Below, one piece after another: positions 27,215 through 36,263 of a stretch of DNA of 64,000 nt. Made by a program: the position numbers and the translations under genes. The notes under the pieces are model-generated. The model was given only the letters and a program-made list of their open reading frames with translations. It did not search any database and was not told the origin of the DNA. This stretch comes from Robertmurraya massiliosenegalensis JC6 (GTDB lineage Bacteria > Bacillota > Bacilli > Bacillales > Cytobacillaceae): NCBI RefSeq assembly GCF_000311725.1, contig NZ_HE978512.1, positions 529,218-593,217 of the forward strand. Direction: 5' to 3'. Every line of letters starts with the position of its first letter. Positions within the stretch are counted from its first letter, which is position 1.

Positions 27215-27360
27215 ACGCTAAAGCCGAAAAGAGCAGCCTTAATTTCAATAACATTTCTATCTTATTTTCCAAGTTACTCAAAAATTCATATGACTGACAT
27301 TTTATGCTCTATGATACTGAAAAGCTCAATGGTACATTAATTAGTAAGGAGGGAGATCTG

Positions 27361-27753
27361 ATGAGTGCTAAGCAATCTCTTGAGGTAAAATCGAAAATCT
27401 GGATCGAACTTAATGATGAAGTTGTTTTTGGACTTGGGCGCATTCGGCTGTTTCGAGAAATTGAACGAACGGGTTCCATGAGTCAAGCTGCTGCTTTACT
27501 TGGAATGTCCTATCGAGCAGCATGGGGGAAAGTAACCGCCACAGAGGAAAGATTAGCTATGCCGTTAGTGGAGCGCCAACAAGGAAATAGGAAAAAAGGG
27601 ACTACTTTAACTCCTACGGGAAAAGAACTGCTTCGACAATATGAAATCTTTCAAAAAAAAGCACAAAAAGCGGTTGATGAATTATTCGAAGACCATCTTG
27701 GGGGACTGCTACACCACCTAAAACAACATACCGATACAGAAAAAAAGATGTAA
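27361..27753 (+). CDS. ModE N-terminal-type winged-helix regulator (no molybdate domain)
   Basis: A 130-residue LysR/ModE-like DNA-binding protein. The HTH covers GLGRIRLFREIERTGSMSQA (about residues 24-43) and MSYRAAWGKV, followed by LVERQQGNRKKGTTLTPTG and a dimerisation helix. It lacks the Mop domains of full ModE, so molybdate sensing cannot be assumed. The ATG at 27361 follows AAGGAGGGAG. It converges on the formate dehydrogenase operon, a molybdenum (or tungsten) enzyme, suggesting control of that operon or of cofactor supply. Confidence 0.85.
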   Translation: MSAKQSLEVKSKIWIELNDEVVFGLGRIRLFREIERTGSMSQAAALLGMSYRAAWGKVTATEERLAMPLVERQQGNRKKGTTLTPTGKELLRQYEIFQKKAQKAVDELFEDHLGGLLHHLKQHTDTEKKM

Positions 27754-27935: not shown

Positions 27936-29387
27936 TTAAAATGCAAACCACTGTTCATAGCTAATAATTGGCTCATTTTTATGCTGAAAATCATTGATTT
28001 CTGGAATGTACCGATAATCCTCTTTATATTGATCGATTTGTTCCACGATATTGCCAATGGCCTTGGCAATATATAGAACTTCCTTTTCCGTCATTGTTGG
28101 ATGTAGAGATACCCTTATCCAGCCAGGCTTTACAAGTTGATTTCCCTTATCAATTTCATTTGTTATAGCGAAGGATTGTCCTTCATCAATTTTTAATAAA
28201 TAATGTCCGTATGTGCCCGCACAAGAGCATCCACCTCTCACTTGGATTCCATGGACATCGTTTAATAGTTTAACGATAATTTGATGATGTACACCTTCCA
28301 CATAAAAGGATACAATCGGAAGTCTATCCCATCTGCGCTCTTCCAAAATTACTACTTTTTTGTTTTCCGCTAAGCGCTCAAGCAATAAATGAACCAGTTT
28401 CTTATCTTGCGCTAACATGAGTTCGCTGCCCATTTCTTCCTTTAAACAAATCGCTAATGCTGTTTTAATCGCTTGTAAAAATCCTGGGGTCCCTCCGTCC
28501 TCCCTTTCTTCAATATTAGAAATATAGGATTTTTCACCCCAAGGGTTTGTCCAAAGAACGGTTCCACCACCTGGGCGATCTGGGACTTTATTTTTGTAAA
28601 GTTTTTTAGAGATAATGGCCACCCCCATAGAACCAGGACCTCCTAAAAATTTATGAGGAGAAAAGAAGATTCCATCTAAGTATGCCTGTTGATTTTTAGG
28701 ATGCATATCAATCGGAATGTACGGAGCAGATGCTGAGAAATCGACAAAACAGATACCTCCATGACGATGCATTACTTCCGCTAATTGATGATAGGGGGTC
28801 TGTATTCCCGTTACATTCGAACAAGCTGTAAAAGAGCCTATTTTCAAAGGTCTATCACCGTATTCTTTTATGGCTTGCTCAAGCATTCTAGGAGATACTT
28901 CACCTTTCGCATCAGGGGGAATAACAACCACGTCGGCAACCGTTTCTTCCCAAGAGGTTTGATTGGAATGATGTTCCATATGTGTAATGAAAACAACTGG
29001 TTTTTGTGTCTCTCTAACTACAACTCTGTATTTTTCATGAAGGGTTAATCCTAATAATCTTTGTATTTTATGCAGAGCACCTGTCATGCCAGTTCCTTCA
29101 AAGAAAAGAAGATCACTGTCAGAAGCATTTACATGTTTTTTTATAATCGATTTTGCTTCCTTATAAGCCCATGTCATACTTTTCCCCGTAACATTTGTCT
29201 CTGTATGAGTGTTCGCAACAAAGGGACCGAATTGATGGAGAATTTTATCCTCTATTGGTTTGTATAGCCTTCCACTTGCGGTCCAGTCTGCATATAGAAT
29301 ATATTTCTTTCCATAATGAGTGTGAAAATCTTGTTTATTTCCAATGATATTTCCTCTAAAATGATGAAAATGCTTTTCTAATTCCAT
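27936..29387 (-). CDS. Class-V aminotransferase, cysteine desulfurase / selenocysteine lyase-like
   Basis: A 483-residue PLP enzyme of the NifS/SufS superfamily. The PLP lysine is in FFSPHKFLGGPGS, an upstream His in THMEHHSN fits the ring-stacking position, and a Cys-bearing loop RGGCSCAGTYGH lies near the end. It is longer than IscS/SufS (~400). The ATG at 29387 follows GAAGGAAC; the longer open frame would overlap the preceding gene. It is last in the FDH operon. FDH maturation needs a desulfurase to pass sulfur via FdhD, and this gene could fill that role or supply selenium, which is inference. Confidence 0.8.
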   Translation of the reverse strand: MELEKHFHHFRGNIIGNKQDFHTHYGKKYILYADWTASGRLYKPIEDKILHQFGPFVANTHTETNVTGKSMTWAYKEAKSIIKKHVNASDSDLLFFEGTGMTGALHKIQRLLGLTLHEKYRVVVRETQKPVVFITHMEHHSNQTSWEETVADVVVIPPDAKGEVSPRMLEQAIKEYGDRPLKIGSFTACSNVTGIQTPYHQLAEVMHRHGGICFVDFSASAPYIPIDMHPKNQQAYLDGIFFSPHKFLGGPGSMGVAIISKKLYKNKVPDRPGGGTVLWTNPWGEKSYISNIEEREDGGTPGFLQAIKTALAICLKEEMGSELMLAQDKKLVHLLLERLAENKKVVILEERRWDRLPIVSFYVEGVHHQIIVKLLNDVHGIQVRGGCSCAGTYGHYLLKIDEGQSFAITNEIDKGNQLVKPGWIRVSLHPTMTEKEVLYIAKAIGNIVEQIDQYKEDYRYIPEINDFQHKNEPIISYEQWFAF

Positions 29388-29469: not shown

Positions 29470-30159
29470 CTACATGGTATAAGACTTAGGTTTCTCCTGA
29501 AGCTGCTCATCGTTTTTTTGATCTTGACCATTCACTTCGTTATACCAAAGTTCATGATGATGCTCTGCATATTCCGAATCCATATATCCTGTTGCCATAG
29601 CATTAAATGAGGATCGCTCACTTGGGTGAAATACAGTGAGGTAAACATGAACACCAAAGAATAATGTTAGTGCTAGCGCTGATATATCATGCACAACTAG
29701 CATGATGATACCTGCTGCACCGGTGAACCAGTCAAACCAAAGGGCAAATCCAGTCACCGCTAACAAAAGGCCAAATATTAATGCAAAAAGATAATACAGC
29801 TTTTGACCTGAATTATATTTCGTTTGTGGTGGAAGATCTCCACCAAGAAAGTAGTGCTTCGGTGCTGCTTTCAGCCAACCAAGATCAGATTTACTCCATT
29901 TAAACGCACTTAAAAATCCAAAGCGCTTTTTTGAAAAAATGAAATAGAGCACCGGTGCCACGACAAACAAAACAGCTCCAATGCGATGGATGAGGCGGGA
30001 AGTATGTCCTGCTGATTGATCCATTAAGGTTGAAGTTCCTTGAAAAAAGATCAAATATCCGGTAATCAGCGCCAAGACAAATCCTAGAGCTACTGACCAG
30101 TGCATCAACATGTCTATCAACTGATAGCGACGAATCAATTTATTTTGGCGCTTACTCAT
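29470..30159 (-). CDS. fdhI: Formate dehydrogenase gamma subunit (cytochrome b556)
   Basis: A 229-residue membrane cytochrome b with four helices (about 18-38, 55-75, 120-140 and 155-180). Histidines in DMLMHWSVALGF and VVHDISALALTLFFGVHVYLTVFHP can ligate two b hemes. It anchors the FDH complex and reduces menaquinone. The ATG at 30159 overlaps the end of the beta gene by 8 bp and follows GGGGAAAGG. Confidence 0.92.
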   Translation of the reverse strand: MSKRQNKLIRRYQLIDMLMHWSVALGFVLALITGYLIFFQGTSTLMDQSAGHTSRLIHRIGAVLFVVAPVLYFIFSKKRFGFLSAFKWSKSDLGWLKAAPKHYFLGGDLPPQTKYNSGQKLYYLFALIFGLLLAVTGFALWFDWFTGAAGIIMLVVHDISALALTLFFGVHVYLTVFHPSERSSFNAMATGYMDSEYAEHHHELWYNEVNGQDQKNDEQLQEKPKSYTM

Positions 30160-30994
30160 CTTCCTTTCCCCCACTTTCTATTTTTTCAAGATCACTCTCT
30201 TTATCATTGTAAGTTGCGGCAGATACGATAAAATTAGCAAGAAATCCAATTGCTGTCGCTCCCATTAATAATTGGGTCGCTGGTTTAATGACATCTTTAC
30301 GGAAGCCGATTAGCTCATTGGTTATTGGTTGTGTTGGCAAGCCATAGACCTCTGGTTTTTCTGTTAACACGTAAATATAATGGGTGCCACCCATATGTTT
30401 GTCTCCATAAACATTGGCATTCGGATAACGCTCTTTAATTTTTTCCACACGTTGATATGCTTGCTTGACAGCTTCTTCCCAATGCTCGAACGTCAAAGCC
30501 GTGGTAGGACAAGTCTGAACACAAGCAGGCATTTCCCCATTTGTAACACGGTCCTGGCAAAAATCGCATTTATTCATTTTCTTCTTTCCCGTCAACGGGT
30601 CTGATTCATACCGAGGAACATCAAACGGACAAGCCTTGCCACAATAAGCACAGCCAATGCACTTATCACTTTGAAAACCAACAAATCCATCTGCATGTGT
30701 ATACAAGGCACTTGATGGACAAACCTCTACACATGGAGCATCTGAACAATGCATGCATTGCTCCTTTTGAATCAGCCATTCAAATGTTTCTGTCTTTCGG
30801 TCATATTTCTCTGTAAATTTCATTAACATTAACGTATTAACTGAACGGTCTGCCGGGTTTTGGTACGTTCCCGGCACTTTCTCAAATTCAGTTGCAGGTA
30901 AGTTATGCCACTCTTTACAAGCTAGTTGGCACGCTTTACACCCTGTACAAAGAGAGGTATCGACTAAAATTGCCCTATCATTTTTATTAGCCAT
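30152..30994 (-). CDS. fdhH: Formate dehydrogenase iron-sulfur beta subunit
   Basis: A 280-residue electron-transfer subunit with four [4Fe-4S] ferredoxin-like cysteine sets: CTGCKACQLACKEWH, CMHCSDAPCVEVCP, CIGCAYCGKACP and CDFC...CVQTCP. A C-terminal helix (~235-258, LLMGATAIGFLANFIVSA) anchors it, as in E. coli FdnH. It starts 3 bp after the alpha stop behind GGGAGGC. The symbol follows E. coli-like naming and is not certain for this organism. Confidence 0.93.
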   Translation of the reverse strand: MANKNDRAILVDTSLCTGCKACQLACKEWHNLPATEFEKVPGTYQNPADRSVNTLMLMKFTEKYDRKTETFEWLIQKEQCMHCSDAPCVEVCPSSALYTHADGFVGFQSDKCIGCAYCGKACPFDVPRYESDPLTGKKKMNKCDFCQDRVTNGEMPACVQTCPTTALTFEHWEEAVKQAYQRVEKIKERYPNANVYGDKHMGGTHYIYVLTEKPEVYGLPTQPITNELIGFRKDVIKPATQLLMGATAIGFLANFIVSAATYNDKESDLEKIESGGKEDE

Positions 30995-30997
30995 ATA

Positions 30998-33900
30998 TTA
31001 GTTGCCTCCCTTTGTCACATTACAAATACAAGCTTTATATTCTGGAGTTCCTGTATTCGGGTCAGCTGCAGAATTGGTCACTTTATTGACTGATTCACCA
31101 TGTACCAACCCTTTATAGCCCCATCCCCATGGAACACCAATTACTTCTACTACTTGGCCATTAACGTCTAATGGTTGGATCCTGTCTGTTACCATGGCAT
31201 CAACTGCAACTTTCCCACGCGCTGTGGAAATGGTCACCTTTTCTCCTGAAGTGACGCCAAGCTTTTTCGCCAAATTTTTACTAATTTCAGCAAAGTTAGA
31301 TGGCATTAACTCATTTAATTGCGGTGTATTTCGTGTAACACCACCTGATAAGAATTGCTCTGTTACCATATACGTTGTTAAAACATATGGAAATTCACTT
31401 GCTTCCCCTGTTTTTTGGATATCTGGTAATGCAAAAGGGCGAATAATCGGATTCGATTGCTGGCTGAACATTGAATTTTGAACAGGTGATTCAAACGGTT
31501 CATAATGAGCTGGCAATGGTCCATCTGCAATTCCAGGTTCTGTAATAACAGGTGCAACTTTGAAGACATTCGGATCATAACCAGGGTTGAGCGTCATGTC
31601 CGCTGTCTCTGTTTGAATTTGTGCATATACAGTGCGGAATAAAGCGCCTTTCCCTTCTCCATTTGAAAACACCTTACTTCCCTCTGGTGTATCTGGTGCT
31701 TTATCCTTTGCGGCAACGTCCAAAATGTCATGTCCAACCCAGCTTGTTCCATTCCACTCTACAAGAGCCCGTTCTTTGTCACGAGGTTTTCCTTTCATAT
31801 CGACAGAACCTCGATTCCAAAGAACTCTCGTATTATTCGGCCAGGCAAATGTCCATTGTGAATGTAATCCAAGGCCACTCGGATCATCGTTATTATGCCT
31901 TAATGAATGGTTCCCTTCTTCTGTTATCACGCCTGTATAAAGGCCACCCATACCAGAAGAAGCTGTTCCAGGTTCTGCTTGTGCAAGCTGTGCACCTGTA
32001 CTAAGCAATTTACCTGTCTTGAGATCATAACCATTCATTTCCTTAAGGATCTGTTCCATATCAACTTCTTCTTCGCCATGAACGACATAATCCCAAGTTA
32101 AATCTAAAATCCCTCTATCTTTCGGGTCACTGCTGTTCGCATATAACTCTTTTACCCGATGCATAATTTCGTAGATAATATCCCCATCTGGTTTCGCTTC
32201 ACCTGGAGGACGTACAGCGACTGGTTTCCCTTGAATCCAACGGGCAGAGTTTGTCATCGTCCCTGCTTTTTCAAAAGCCATCGCCGCTGGCAATAAAATG
32301 ACTTCCGTTTGAATCTCTTTCGAATCCAAACCAGGATATTGCCAAAATGATGCCGTCTCTGTCTCAAAAATTTCTGACACTACAAGCATCTCTAAATTAC
32401 TCAAGCCTTTCCAAACCATATCCAGATTAGGCGTACTTACAGCTGGATTTTGCGCAAAAATAAAACCAAGCTTAAATTCATTTTGATTTAATTTTTCAAA
32501 AATCGGCACATAGTTTGCTGCTGAATCTTGCGCTCTTCGTTTTGGTAAATAATGATAATAAAATTCATTATCTGCCGTTGCTTTATCTCCATACCAAGCT
32601 TTCAATAAAGCGATTGTTTTCTTAGCTTTCGCTGTTCCAACTGCTTTGACATAATCATTAAGCGTTGGTTGAGCATCTGTAGGGATTGGCATATAACCTG
32701 GTAGAATATGTGGTAAACAAGCAATGTCTGTTGATCCTTGTACATTTGGCTCTCCGCGGTTGGCATTAATGCCTCCACCAGCCATTCCCATATTCCCAAG
32801 TAATAATTGGATAATGGCATACATTCTAATCCCTTGTACACCAACGGTTTTTTGTGTCATTCCTAAAGCATACAAAATGGTCCCAGGGCGATTTTTTGTA
32901 AATGTCTCAGCAATGAGTTTCATTTTATCAACTGGCATGCCCGTAATTTCAGATCCCTTTTCAAATGTGTATTCACTAAAGTGTTGCTTCAATTTCATAA
33001 GTACACAATTCGGATCCGTTAATGATTCTGCCTGCAATGGTTTGCCATCTGAACCAAGTTGGTATGTCCAACTATCCCTGCTATATTTGAAGCTCTTATC
33101 GTCATATCCTGAAAAGACGCCATCACTAAATGAGAAGGATGGATTGACCTTATACAGCGCATTCGTATGGGCTTTAATATATTCTTCATCATAAAGTTCG
33201 TTATCTAAAATGTATTTGACGATCGCACCTAAATAGCCTATATCTGTTCCAGGTCGTACAGGTGCGTAAATATCAGCGACCTTCGCCGTTCTATTAAATC
33301 TAGGGTCTACTACAATTAAGGTTCCGCCTCGCTTTTGCGCCTCTAATACCCAGCGCATCGCTAATGGGTGAGTCTCAGCCGTGTTATTCCCACCAATCAA
33401 AATCACTTTGGCATTTTTCATATCTGTAAAACTGTTTGTCATCGCACCACTACCGAATGAAGGGGCTAAACTAGCCACCGTTGGAGCGTGTCATATCTCT
33501 GCCTGGTGAGTATAGTTATGGATTCCTAAAGCACGGTTGAACTTCGTATATAAATACGCCTCTTCATTATCGATTTCGGCACTTCCTAAACTAAATATGC
33601 CCTCAAGACGATTAACGGTAACCTTTTTCCCATCTATTTCAACTGCGTCTGTAAATGTCTTCTCCCGCACATCCTTCACTTTATGGGCAATTTTATCAAT
33701 TGCCTCTTCCCAAGAAATAGGCTCCCATTTATCACTTCCTGGTTTGCGAACCAATGGATGGGTTAGACGCATATCAGAATTATGCATCTCTTTAAGCGAG
33801 CGTCCTTTTGGACAAAGTGCTCCTTCATTTATTGGATGCTCCTTCAACCCTTCTGTTGAAACGATTTCATCCCCTTTTACCTTGACTTCAATTCCGCATC

Positions 33901-34072
33901 CGACAGAACAGAAATGGCAAATCCCATACGATGTAGTAGCACCAGCAGTCATTAATGGGAATACTTTGTTTTCCTCTCCTGATTCGGCATGGACACGTTT
34001 CTCTGCCAAATAGGAAGCAGCAACAGATGCTGCTGTATATTTCATAAACTGACGCCTAGAAAGCTTTGGCAT
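30998..34072 (-). CDS. fdhA: Formate dehydrogenase alpha subunit, selenoprotein (in-frame TGA at codon 194)
   Basis: A single 1,024-residue molybdopterin oxidoreductase read through TGA at 33493-33491. It begins with a Tat signal (LSRRQFMKYTAASVAASYLA), then a [4Fe-4S] site CHFCSVGC...CPKGRSL. At the active site RALGIHNYTHQAEI is followed by TGA and then HAPTVASLAPSFGSGAMTN. E. coli FdnG has QARVUHGPTVASLAP at the same place (Sec196, 1,015 residues). The remaining ~830 residues contain the Mo-bisMGD domains to the end. A SECIS-like hairpin follows the TGA. The complex faces outside the membrane and oxidises formate. An automatic annotation would split it into two genes or a pseudogene. Confidence 0.93.
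33462..33493 (-). promoter_or_regulatory. Bacterial SECIS element (selenocysteine insertion)
   Basis: Counting the TGA T as 1, G15-G16 pair with C31-C32, U17 is bulged, GGCTA (18-22) pairs with TAGCC (26-30), and the loop is G23-U24-U25. The E. coli fdhF/fdnG element also has bulged U17 and loop G23 and U24 contacting SelB. The match in register is direct evidence for recoding. Confidence 0.88.
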
Positions 34073-34113: not shown

Positions 34114-34241
34114 TATGTCAATTTAGACATATATAAATTAAATCGATTTTCTAACAAATAGATCTTTTTTGACATATGAAACTAGTGATCACAATAATAA
34201 ACTTCATCAATCGCTTTCTGACATATGTCAAATCTGACATA
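34114..34241. promoter_or_regulatory. Cluster of TGACAT/ATGTCA motifs upstream of the FDH operon
   Basis: TATGTC-N6-GACATA (34114-34131), TTGACATATG (34169-34178), the palindrome TGACATATGTCA (34219-34230) and TGACATA (34235-34241) are packed in 128 bp before fdhA. They look like repeated sites for one regulator, identity unknown. Confidence 0.6.
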
Positions 34242-34290: not shown

Positions 34291-35991
34291 TTATTCTGTT
34301 AACCATTTATAGATCTCTGAGATCGTCTTTTCCACATTATTTTGCCTGTTTAAGTAAAATTGCGGGGTTTCACTATTACTCAGTGCCTTCAACACTTTTT
34401 TATAAAAAGCATGGGCAAAGACAGATGTATTAATGAAGACGGCATCTACTCTCTTAACCTTTGAAATATCCCTATTCATTTCATCTACATCGACGAACTC
34501 CACATTTGATAACTGTTCTCTTAATTTCTGGCGCCAACTCGAATGTCCACCAAAAATGACCAATCGCTTTGATTGGATAAACTGTACCATCGTCTCCAAT
34601 GAAGGTTCTGATTCCAGCGAAGTTTCATCATGTTCTGCTAGATAGGCAAATTTCCGCAGAGCGTGCACTTCATGTCTATAGTCTTCCATGGATTGAATCT
34701 GTTGCTCTAGCTGTCTGATTTTGCTATGTGCTTGACGTAGTTCTTCGGTCAAGCCTTCTATTTTATCTTCCTTATGCTGATTTGCTATTTCCCACTTCTT
34801 TTGTTGTTGCGAGAGAGCCGCTTCCTTCTGAACAATTTGCTCCTCTTTTGCTTTCATTTCGTAATAGTAATCTAATTTTGACTTATCCAAATATAATTCT
34901 TTCGTTTCCAGGTACAGTGAGCTAAGACATTTCACATATAAGCAGGAGATAAGAAATAGATCTTGGTTTTCTTTTGAAATGTAATTGTATTTTTTCGCAT
35001 ATAAGAGCTCCAAAAAAACGATATCTAAATCTTGTTTTGTAAAAGGGATTTGTTCGGTTGCATCGAGCTCATGGATTTTAAGCGTTTTCAACCATCCCCC
35101 TAATGCCCCGATATAATTTGCAGGGCTTCTTTGAAAAACCTTTTTCTCTGCCATTTCTAAATGACAATTAGGATGAACATCATAGATTTTTTTAAAACAC
35201 TGACCAATTAAATACTCTAAAAAGAACCCAAGCGAATCAAATCGATGATTGGTGGGAATATTGTATTCTATATAAAGTTGATCAAGCTCTTTCCGATGTT
35301 TATGGCATATTTCTTTCGAAAACATCGACTTTTGGACTTGAGATTCATTTATTGCCCCACTCATGATTTCCTGAAATGACTTCCAGGCAACATTATCAGT
35401 GTTGAGCCATTTCTTTTCACGAACACATAAATACCAAAGAACAATATTTTGATAGAGTAACTCAATTTCTTTGACAATCTTAATCTTTTTTCTTTTTGCG
35501 TAACTTCTCATAAAGTCTTCTAAGTCAATTTGTTCATGTTGTCGAAAATATTGATAGGCAAATTTATATCCTCTTTTAATCAATTGATCTAATTGAACAT
35601 ATTGTCCCGTTCGATTGCTCCATTCGAGTATCCCTGCTATTTGCCTAATTTTTTCTTCACTTTTCGTCGTATACATCGAAAAAACAGGATTTTCTTTTAA
35701 GGCACTTTGCTGGTAGGCTTCGTAATATTCCCACTCCTTTTTCCGATACAAATTATCAATGTATGGATGCAAATAGGAATTCCCACCTAATGAAATGCAC
35801 AGAAACAGCTGCTCTACTTTGACCTCTTTAGAAAAATAATGCTGCTCGATCACAACGTGGGACTGCTCACCATGTTCATTTTTCTTTGTTTCGACTACGT
35901 TCCCTTTTTTATAACCGTGTCGCTCTCCCTTCATAAGTAGCTCATACATCGTATTGTTAGAAACTTTTAATCTACTTGCTTGTTCATTCAA
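34291..35991 (-). CDS. Coiled-coil protein with C-terminal DUF2325-like domain
   Basis: A 566-residue protein of unknown function. The N-terminal ~380 residues are helical with no motif I recognise. A charged coiled coil (about 385-450, with QIVQKEAALSQQQKKWE) precedes a C-terminal ~95-residue Rossmann-like segment (LVIFGGHSSWRQKLREQL, then VDAVFINTSVFAHAFYKKVL), which resembles DUF2325. The start is a TTG at 35991 behind GGGGGTGGGAG, rather than the ATG inside that site. It lies 218 bp upstream of fdhA on the same strand. A link to formate or selenium metabolism is only positional. Confidence 0.75.
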   Translation of the reverse strand: MNEQASRLKVSNNTMYELLMKGERHGYKKGNVVETKKNEHGEQSHVVIEQHYFSKEVKVEQLFLCISLGGNSYLHPYIDNLYRKKEWEYYEAYQQSALKENPVFSMYTTKSEEKIRQIAGILEWSNRTGQYVQLDQLIKRGYKFAYQYFRQHEQIDLEDFMRSYAKRKKIKIVKEIELLYQNIVLWYLCVREKKWLNTDNVAWKSFQEIMSGAINESQVQKSMFSKEICHKHRKELDQLYIEYNIPTNHRFDSLGFFLEYLIGQCFKKIYDVHPNCHLEMAEKKVFQRSPANYIGALGGWLKTLKIHELDATEQIPFTKQDLDIVFLELLYAKKYNYISKENQDLFLISCLYVKCLSSLYLETKELYLDKSKLDYYYEMKAKEEQIVQKEAALSQQQKKWEIANQHKEDKIEGLTEELRQAHSKIRQLEQQIQSMEDYRHEVHALRKFAYLAEHDETSLESEPSLETMVQFIQSKRLVIFGGHSSWRQKLREQLSNVEFVDVDEMNRDISKVKRVDAVFINTSVFAHAFYKKVLKALSNSETPQFYLNRQNNVEKTISEIYKWLTE

Positions 35992-36263
35992 TCTCCCACC
36001 CCCTTCATGCACTACTATAAAAGTTGTTTTTTCTGGACTCTATGCTAAATGTCACATTTTTGTTAAGTTTTGTTTAGTTTTGTTATTTTTTTGTCTAAAT
36101 TGTGAACAACAAAATTACGTTCTATAACGCTGACACAAATTGGATACAATTCTCATTTTGTTTCCTATCTACAATTACGCTTTAAAAGATATGCATCTCT
36201 AATGAATGAAATTTTCCAATCAATCCCATACTATGGATAAAAATGGATAAGAAGGTACAAAGT

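Follow-up and report, generated by a model that had tools for sequence, protein, structure and literature searches.

Two solved enzymes are the closest described systems. In Escherichia coli, FdnGHI (formate dehydrogenase-N, PDB 1KQF) is encoded in the order G-H-I, its catalytic subunit carries selenocysteine (Sec) at residue 196 and its fdnG gene contains a SECIS_3 element. The other is a Sec-containing formate dehydrogenase (PDB 9QM0, and others), which we take to come from Desulfovibrio and which is presumably a two-subunit enzyme. We analysed 64,000 nucleotides of the Robertmurraya massiliosenegalensis JC6 genome, hereafter the window. Its fdnGHI operon resembles that of E. coli in gene order, in the aligned Sec position and in the presence of SECIS_3, the element scoring 84.3 bits in E. 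coli fdnG versus 61.9 in the window. Unlike in E. coli, an aminotransferase gene comes next. Solved structures matched by the window protein include E. coli 1KQF, and the best-scoring solved chain by sequence is that of 9QM0 (756.9 bits), in which a C, standing for Sec, is aligned at the position of the window TGA. The window operon has a cytochrome b subunit, unlike the two-subunit Desulfovibrio enzyme. It is an ordinary Sec formate dehydrogenase of a known type. More precisely, we read fdnGHI as a normal respiratory formate dehydrogenase operon, with Sec predicted at codon 194, in a Bacillaceae-type host having a complete Sec gene set. Judged from sequence, we give this reading a probability of about 0.97.

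Features of the fdnGHI region, in window coordinates
Feature	Position	Strand	Evidence or remark
fdnG, predicted Sec-containing alpha (catalytic) subunit of formate dehydrogenase-N, with TGA codon 194 read through	30998..34072	-	TIGR01553 score, domains
In-frame TGA, codon 194, predicted to be read as Sec	33491..33493	-	frame and aligned homologues
SECIS element, Rfam SECIS_3 (RF01989), around and directly after the TGA	33438..33496	-	61.9 bits, E 1.5e-14
fdnH, Fe-S beta subunit	30152..30994	-	TIGR01582 257.8 bits, under cut-off 334.7
fdnI, cytochrome b gamma subunit	29470..30174	-	TIGR01583 100.6 bits (cut-off 115.85, not reached); PF01292
Class-V aminotransferase, cysteine-desulfurase-like	27936..29387	-	after fdnGHI here
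HTH regulator resembling ModE DNA-binding part	27304..27753	+	Pfam HTH_1
573-residue protein with DUF2325-like end (under Pfam cut-off), candidate regulator	34291..36012	-	near fdn in four genomes
Palindrome TATGTC-N6-GACATA, exact, candidate operator upstream of fdnG	34114..34131	+	exact-match search
Palindrome TATGTC-N6-GACATA, second exact copy	34224..34241	+	exact-match search

The fdnG frame contains a single internal TGA before its terminal stop, and it stays open for 830 codons downstream of this TGA. An earlier note on this DNA had proposed that one TGA splits a one-frame fdnG at the Sec position of FdnG enzymes. The alignment with Sec 196 of E. coli bears this out, and the read-through product (1,024 residues, 112.5 kDa) agrees with the ~113 kDa predicted there. 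Against TIGR01553 (formate dehydrogenase-N alpha), the product scores 979.3 bits and covers positions 2-1009 of the 1009 of the model, above the whole-length curated cut-off of 814.2. Two motifs are present, CxxCxxxC (residue 52) and CPKG (residue 87). The Fe4S4 (PF04879), Molybdopterin (PF00384) and Molydop_binding (PF01568) domains all exceed their Pfam cut-offs, in line with the note's claim of an intact Fe-S site and intact pterin domains. For the Tat signal, claimed intact as well, there is an RR-x-F motif (here RRQF) at residue 6, and the Pfam TAT_signal model gives 19.5 bits, below its cut-off of 22.7. The adjoining fdnH and fdnI have FDH-beta and formate-DH-gamma as their top models, yet both stay below the NCBIfam equivalog cut-offs. 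The fdnG gene is apparently intact, not broken, and its internal "stop" is very likely read as Sec.

A second Sec-FdnG is encoded in the same genome (C2:486302-488743), about 40 kb before the window. Its type is the common one in the family. Both copies have one TGA at the same residue, a SECIS_3 element (60.9 bits in the second copy) and the G-H-I order. They differ in that they are only 41-43% identical, belong to separate clades and only the second has fdhD beside it. This fdhD is one of two in the genome. The window type, defined by at least 80% identity, occurs in just 3 of 193 family genomes. At 73-75% identity, it is found in Tepidibacillus, Virgibacillus and two Cerasibacillus. In a tree of 27 rows, FdnG of genome G161 groups with Virgibacillus and Cerasibacillus, apart from the window protein (support 99/95). 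This scarcity in the family and this kinship would fit horizontal acquisition of the operon, as a second Sec-FdnG beside the common type. However, two genomes keep the flanking genes at loci where fdn is missing. In G100 (L082 4836-7509), DUF2325-like and ModE-like genes and an aminotransferase remnant are present with no fdnGHI match between them. In G128 (L083 5510-7520), the DUF2325-like and ModE-like genes are kept and no fdn or aminotransferase match is found there. Gene loss therefore probably contributed to the patchiness of the window type, and repeated loss would explain it too. We thus hold acquisition, which would come in addition to the main reading, at somewhat less than even odds.

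The reading of codon 194 as Sec depends on the Sec machinery. The earlier note had staked its proposal on selA, selB, selD and tRNA-Sec, and all four, as required for a bacterial selenoprotein, are present in the assembly (4.96 Mb, 24 contigs, estimated 100% complete). Scores are 565.4 bits for selA and 359.9 bits for selB, whose match is near full length (2-580 of 581) and includes two SelB winged-helix domains. The tRNA-Sec (56.7 bits, gathering threshold 47) has the anticodon tca. The selD gene (386.8 bits) has itself an in-frame TGA, in SSKAG-U-GCK, which we take to be the known Sec/Cys site of SelD. These genes are distributed over three loci on two contigs, neither being that of the window, and no tRNA genes were found in the 64-kb window.

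The TGA is conserved. A scan of a genome collection gave six relatives, all with TGA; one record, L022, is apparently the same as G016:C421, the two contigs having an identical length of 7,920 bases, and was counted once. FdnG-type matches were found in 121 of the 193 family genomes. Among these 127 matches, 123 have one TGA (one of them also a TAA), two are full-length without TGA and two are partial, starting past the site. The codon was aligned individually in 38 distinct genes, the remaining TGA rows being counted from match rows. It is TGA in 36, TGT in one and TGC in one, so that the in-frame UGA stands where homologues have Sec or Cys. selA exceeds its cut-off in 119 of the 121 genomes with FdnG; the other two are assemblies only 80-81% complete. 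The association of FdnG with selA gives a Fisher p of 1.4e-7, a value that treats related genomes as independent. The two Cys-FdnG genes, L062 (in G184) and L063 (in G006), with codons TGT and TGC, respectively, belong to genomes that also hold a Sec-FdnG. In the tree, both nest inside the Sec clade, which suggests a change from Sec to Cys.

A SECIS hairpin lies 3' of the UGA. Its score is just under the gathering threshold (1.1 bits below 63). Accordingly, Rfam scans at gathering thresholds gave no match of any kind in the window and no SECIS in 12 loci, and E-value scans did find SECIS_3 where these had not. Nine Sec genes other than those of E. coli and the two copies of this genome score from 37.1 to 63.0 bits. 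Of the two Cys genes, one reaches 27.5 bits and the other was not found at E 0.1. These scores are partly due to the UGA and to the conserved protein sequence, and several lower-stem pairs are non-standard in the window.

Synonymous codon conservation, taken as the fraction of pairs in which the codons for a shared residue are identical, was measured in seven genes of the window clade over 1,012 windows of codons. Codons 192-207 are the best conserved (0.864, versus a gene mean of 0.490, sd 0.072). The eight highest-ranking of the 1,012 lie at the TGA or a few codons from it, between codons 189 and 213, and codons 195-210, which start just past the TGA, rank 12th with 77% identity. Pairing was examined in alignment A1, made of 30 rows (27 distinct): E. 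coli and 29 Sec genes, the other seven of the 36 being similar ones that were left out. When the SECIS_3 structure is fixed on the 30 sequences, 84% of the cells are paired versus 34-51% in slid versions, and 96.8% are paired in the apical helix. Both sides have changed in 25 cells, and the covariation score is 0.258; none of 500 shuffles reaches either value or the percentage paired. Changes on both sides occur in 5 pairs, a number that 84 of the 500 shuffles attain, and 170 of them attain the 13 further pair types; because the sequences are related, these shuffle counts are not probabilities. Minimum free energy folding of 55-109 nt around the TGA does not set the native sequence apart from its shuffles (z -0.06, 0.11, 1.29). 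The 22-nt apical hairpin of the window has a z of -2.23, and 9 of 200 shuffles do as well. For the E. coli hairpin the number of such shuffles is 11 and for that of the second FdnG it is 34; the two Cys genes give 45 and 200.

These data bear on two other explanations of the TGA. According to the first, UGA would be read as a standard amino acid, by a suppressor tRNA or under another code. A frame that is open when TGA is taken as a residue cannot itself tell which residue is inserted. However, the tRNA-Sec with its selA, selB and selD partners, the Cys at the same position in the two paralogs devoid of TGA, the SECIS covariation and the C written for Sec in the closest solved relative, named as selenocysteine-containing, all point to Sec and make this explanation highly improbable. 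According to the second, for which nothing speaks beyond the stop itself, a gene that once encoded Cys would have suffered a nonsense mutation or been missequenced. This is just as improbable in view of the Sec genes, the synonymous constraint peaking around the TGA and the long frame kept past it, and it is contradicted by the conservation of the same TGA in several genera and in the genome's own second copy.

Sec at codon 194 remains our reading. What we observe directly is the arrangement of the genes, the conservation of the UGA, the constraint on the hairpin and the Sec genes; for Sec insertion, the metal, the electron path and export, we draw on E. coli FdnGHI and its Sec pathway. By this analogy, SelA and SelD would charge tRNA-Sec (UCA) with Sec. 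SelB, bound to the hairpin just past the UGA, would then deliver Sec in place of a translation stop. In the enzyme, Sec would be a ligand of Mo or W in the bis-pterin cofactor where formate is oxidised. The FdnH clusters would carry the electrons to the haems of FdnI and on to menaquinone, and the alpha-beta part would be exported via its putative Tat signal.

The aminotransferase gene, whose start at 29387 is a choice among three possible starts, also follows fdnGHI in two relatives, G016 and G161. Its product is a possible sulfur donor for the cofactor. A role as selenocysteine lyase is not claimed because the SclA model gives 48.8 bits versus a cut-off of 525. ModE is our label for the nearby HTH regulator, the Pfam match being HTH_1.

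Upstream of fdnG, the two exact copies of the palindrome are the only ones in the whole genome. Elsewhere, we found three copies in G016, one in G161, two in G184 and one in G028. In these five genomes, all nine are upstream of Sec-fdnG genes of two clades, the window type or a type 48-49% identical to it. Since the palindrome was chosen by eye from upstream regions, it necessarily occurs at the fdnG of the window, G016, G184 and G028. That choice does not account for its being absent from the rest of those genomes, nor for the G161 copy. In 32 other family genomes, six exact copies occur in five genomes, versus 21 of a reversed control; one of the six is at the fdn-less locus of G100. With one mismatch, the palindrome is no commoner than the reversed control. 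With two mismatches, five matches are found in the window, a number reached by 13 of 100 shuffles. Neither half-site hexamer tested was found within 263 bases before fdnG in L023, L024, L025 and L027, four relatives of the window clade. ATGTCA and TGACAT do not occur in the 260 bases upstream of the second Sec-FdnG.

The DUF2325-like gene is present in 19 of the 193 family genomes. It is near an fdn operon in G000, G184, G161 and G016, where it is a fragment at a contig end. Sixteen of the 19 have neither the window FdnG type nor the 48-49% type, and among those 16 the exact palindrome is beside the gene in G100 only. The protein and the palindrome might form a dedicated fdn control unit, one that could adjust an expensive selenoenzyme to formate, molybdate or selenium. 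We consider this rather unlikely, the more so because four clade relatives are without the motif and the DUF2325-like gene has no adjacent palindrome in most of the genomes that carry it. To our knowledge, no such control unit has been described.

The earlier note had presented the gene as a surprise, selenoproteins being uncommon in Bacillaceae. This is wrong for the present lineage. selA exceeds its cut-off in 172 of the 193 family genomes, nearly nine in ten. In a sample of 249 genomes of the order, at least nine of them from the same family, it does so in 116. The ground for surprise therefore fails here. As early as 2006, a published table listed three selenoproteins in Bacillales (PMC1794560, Table 2). 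Among the matches listed in the open PMC literature, no paper has a title centred on Sec in Bacillaceae. The same note expected standard annotation to yield a pseudogene or two ORFs. E. coli records make this doubtful. In RefSeq, fdnG of E. coli K-12 is one CDS. Of 12 E. coli records listed, 11 name no feature other than fdnG where the match lies, and the twelfth holds only 5% of the gene.

The natural Sec/Cys paralogs within single genomes (G184 and G006) offer a useful setting in which to ask what advantage Sec confers. The frequency of selA corrects an impression that may go back to Bacillus subtilis, a species that does not appear among the selA-positive control genomes. Since selA is present in most genomes of the family, the supply of selenium should be important for its formate respiration.
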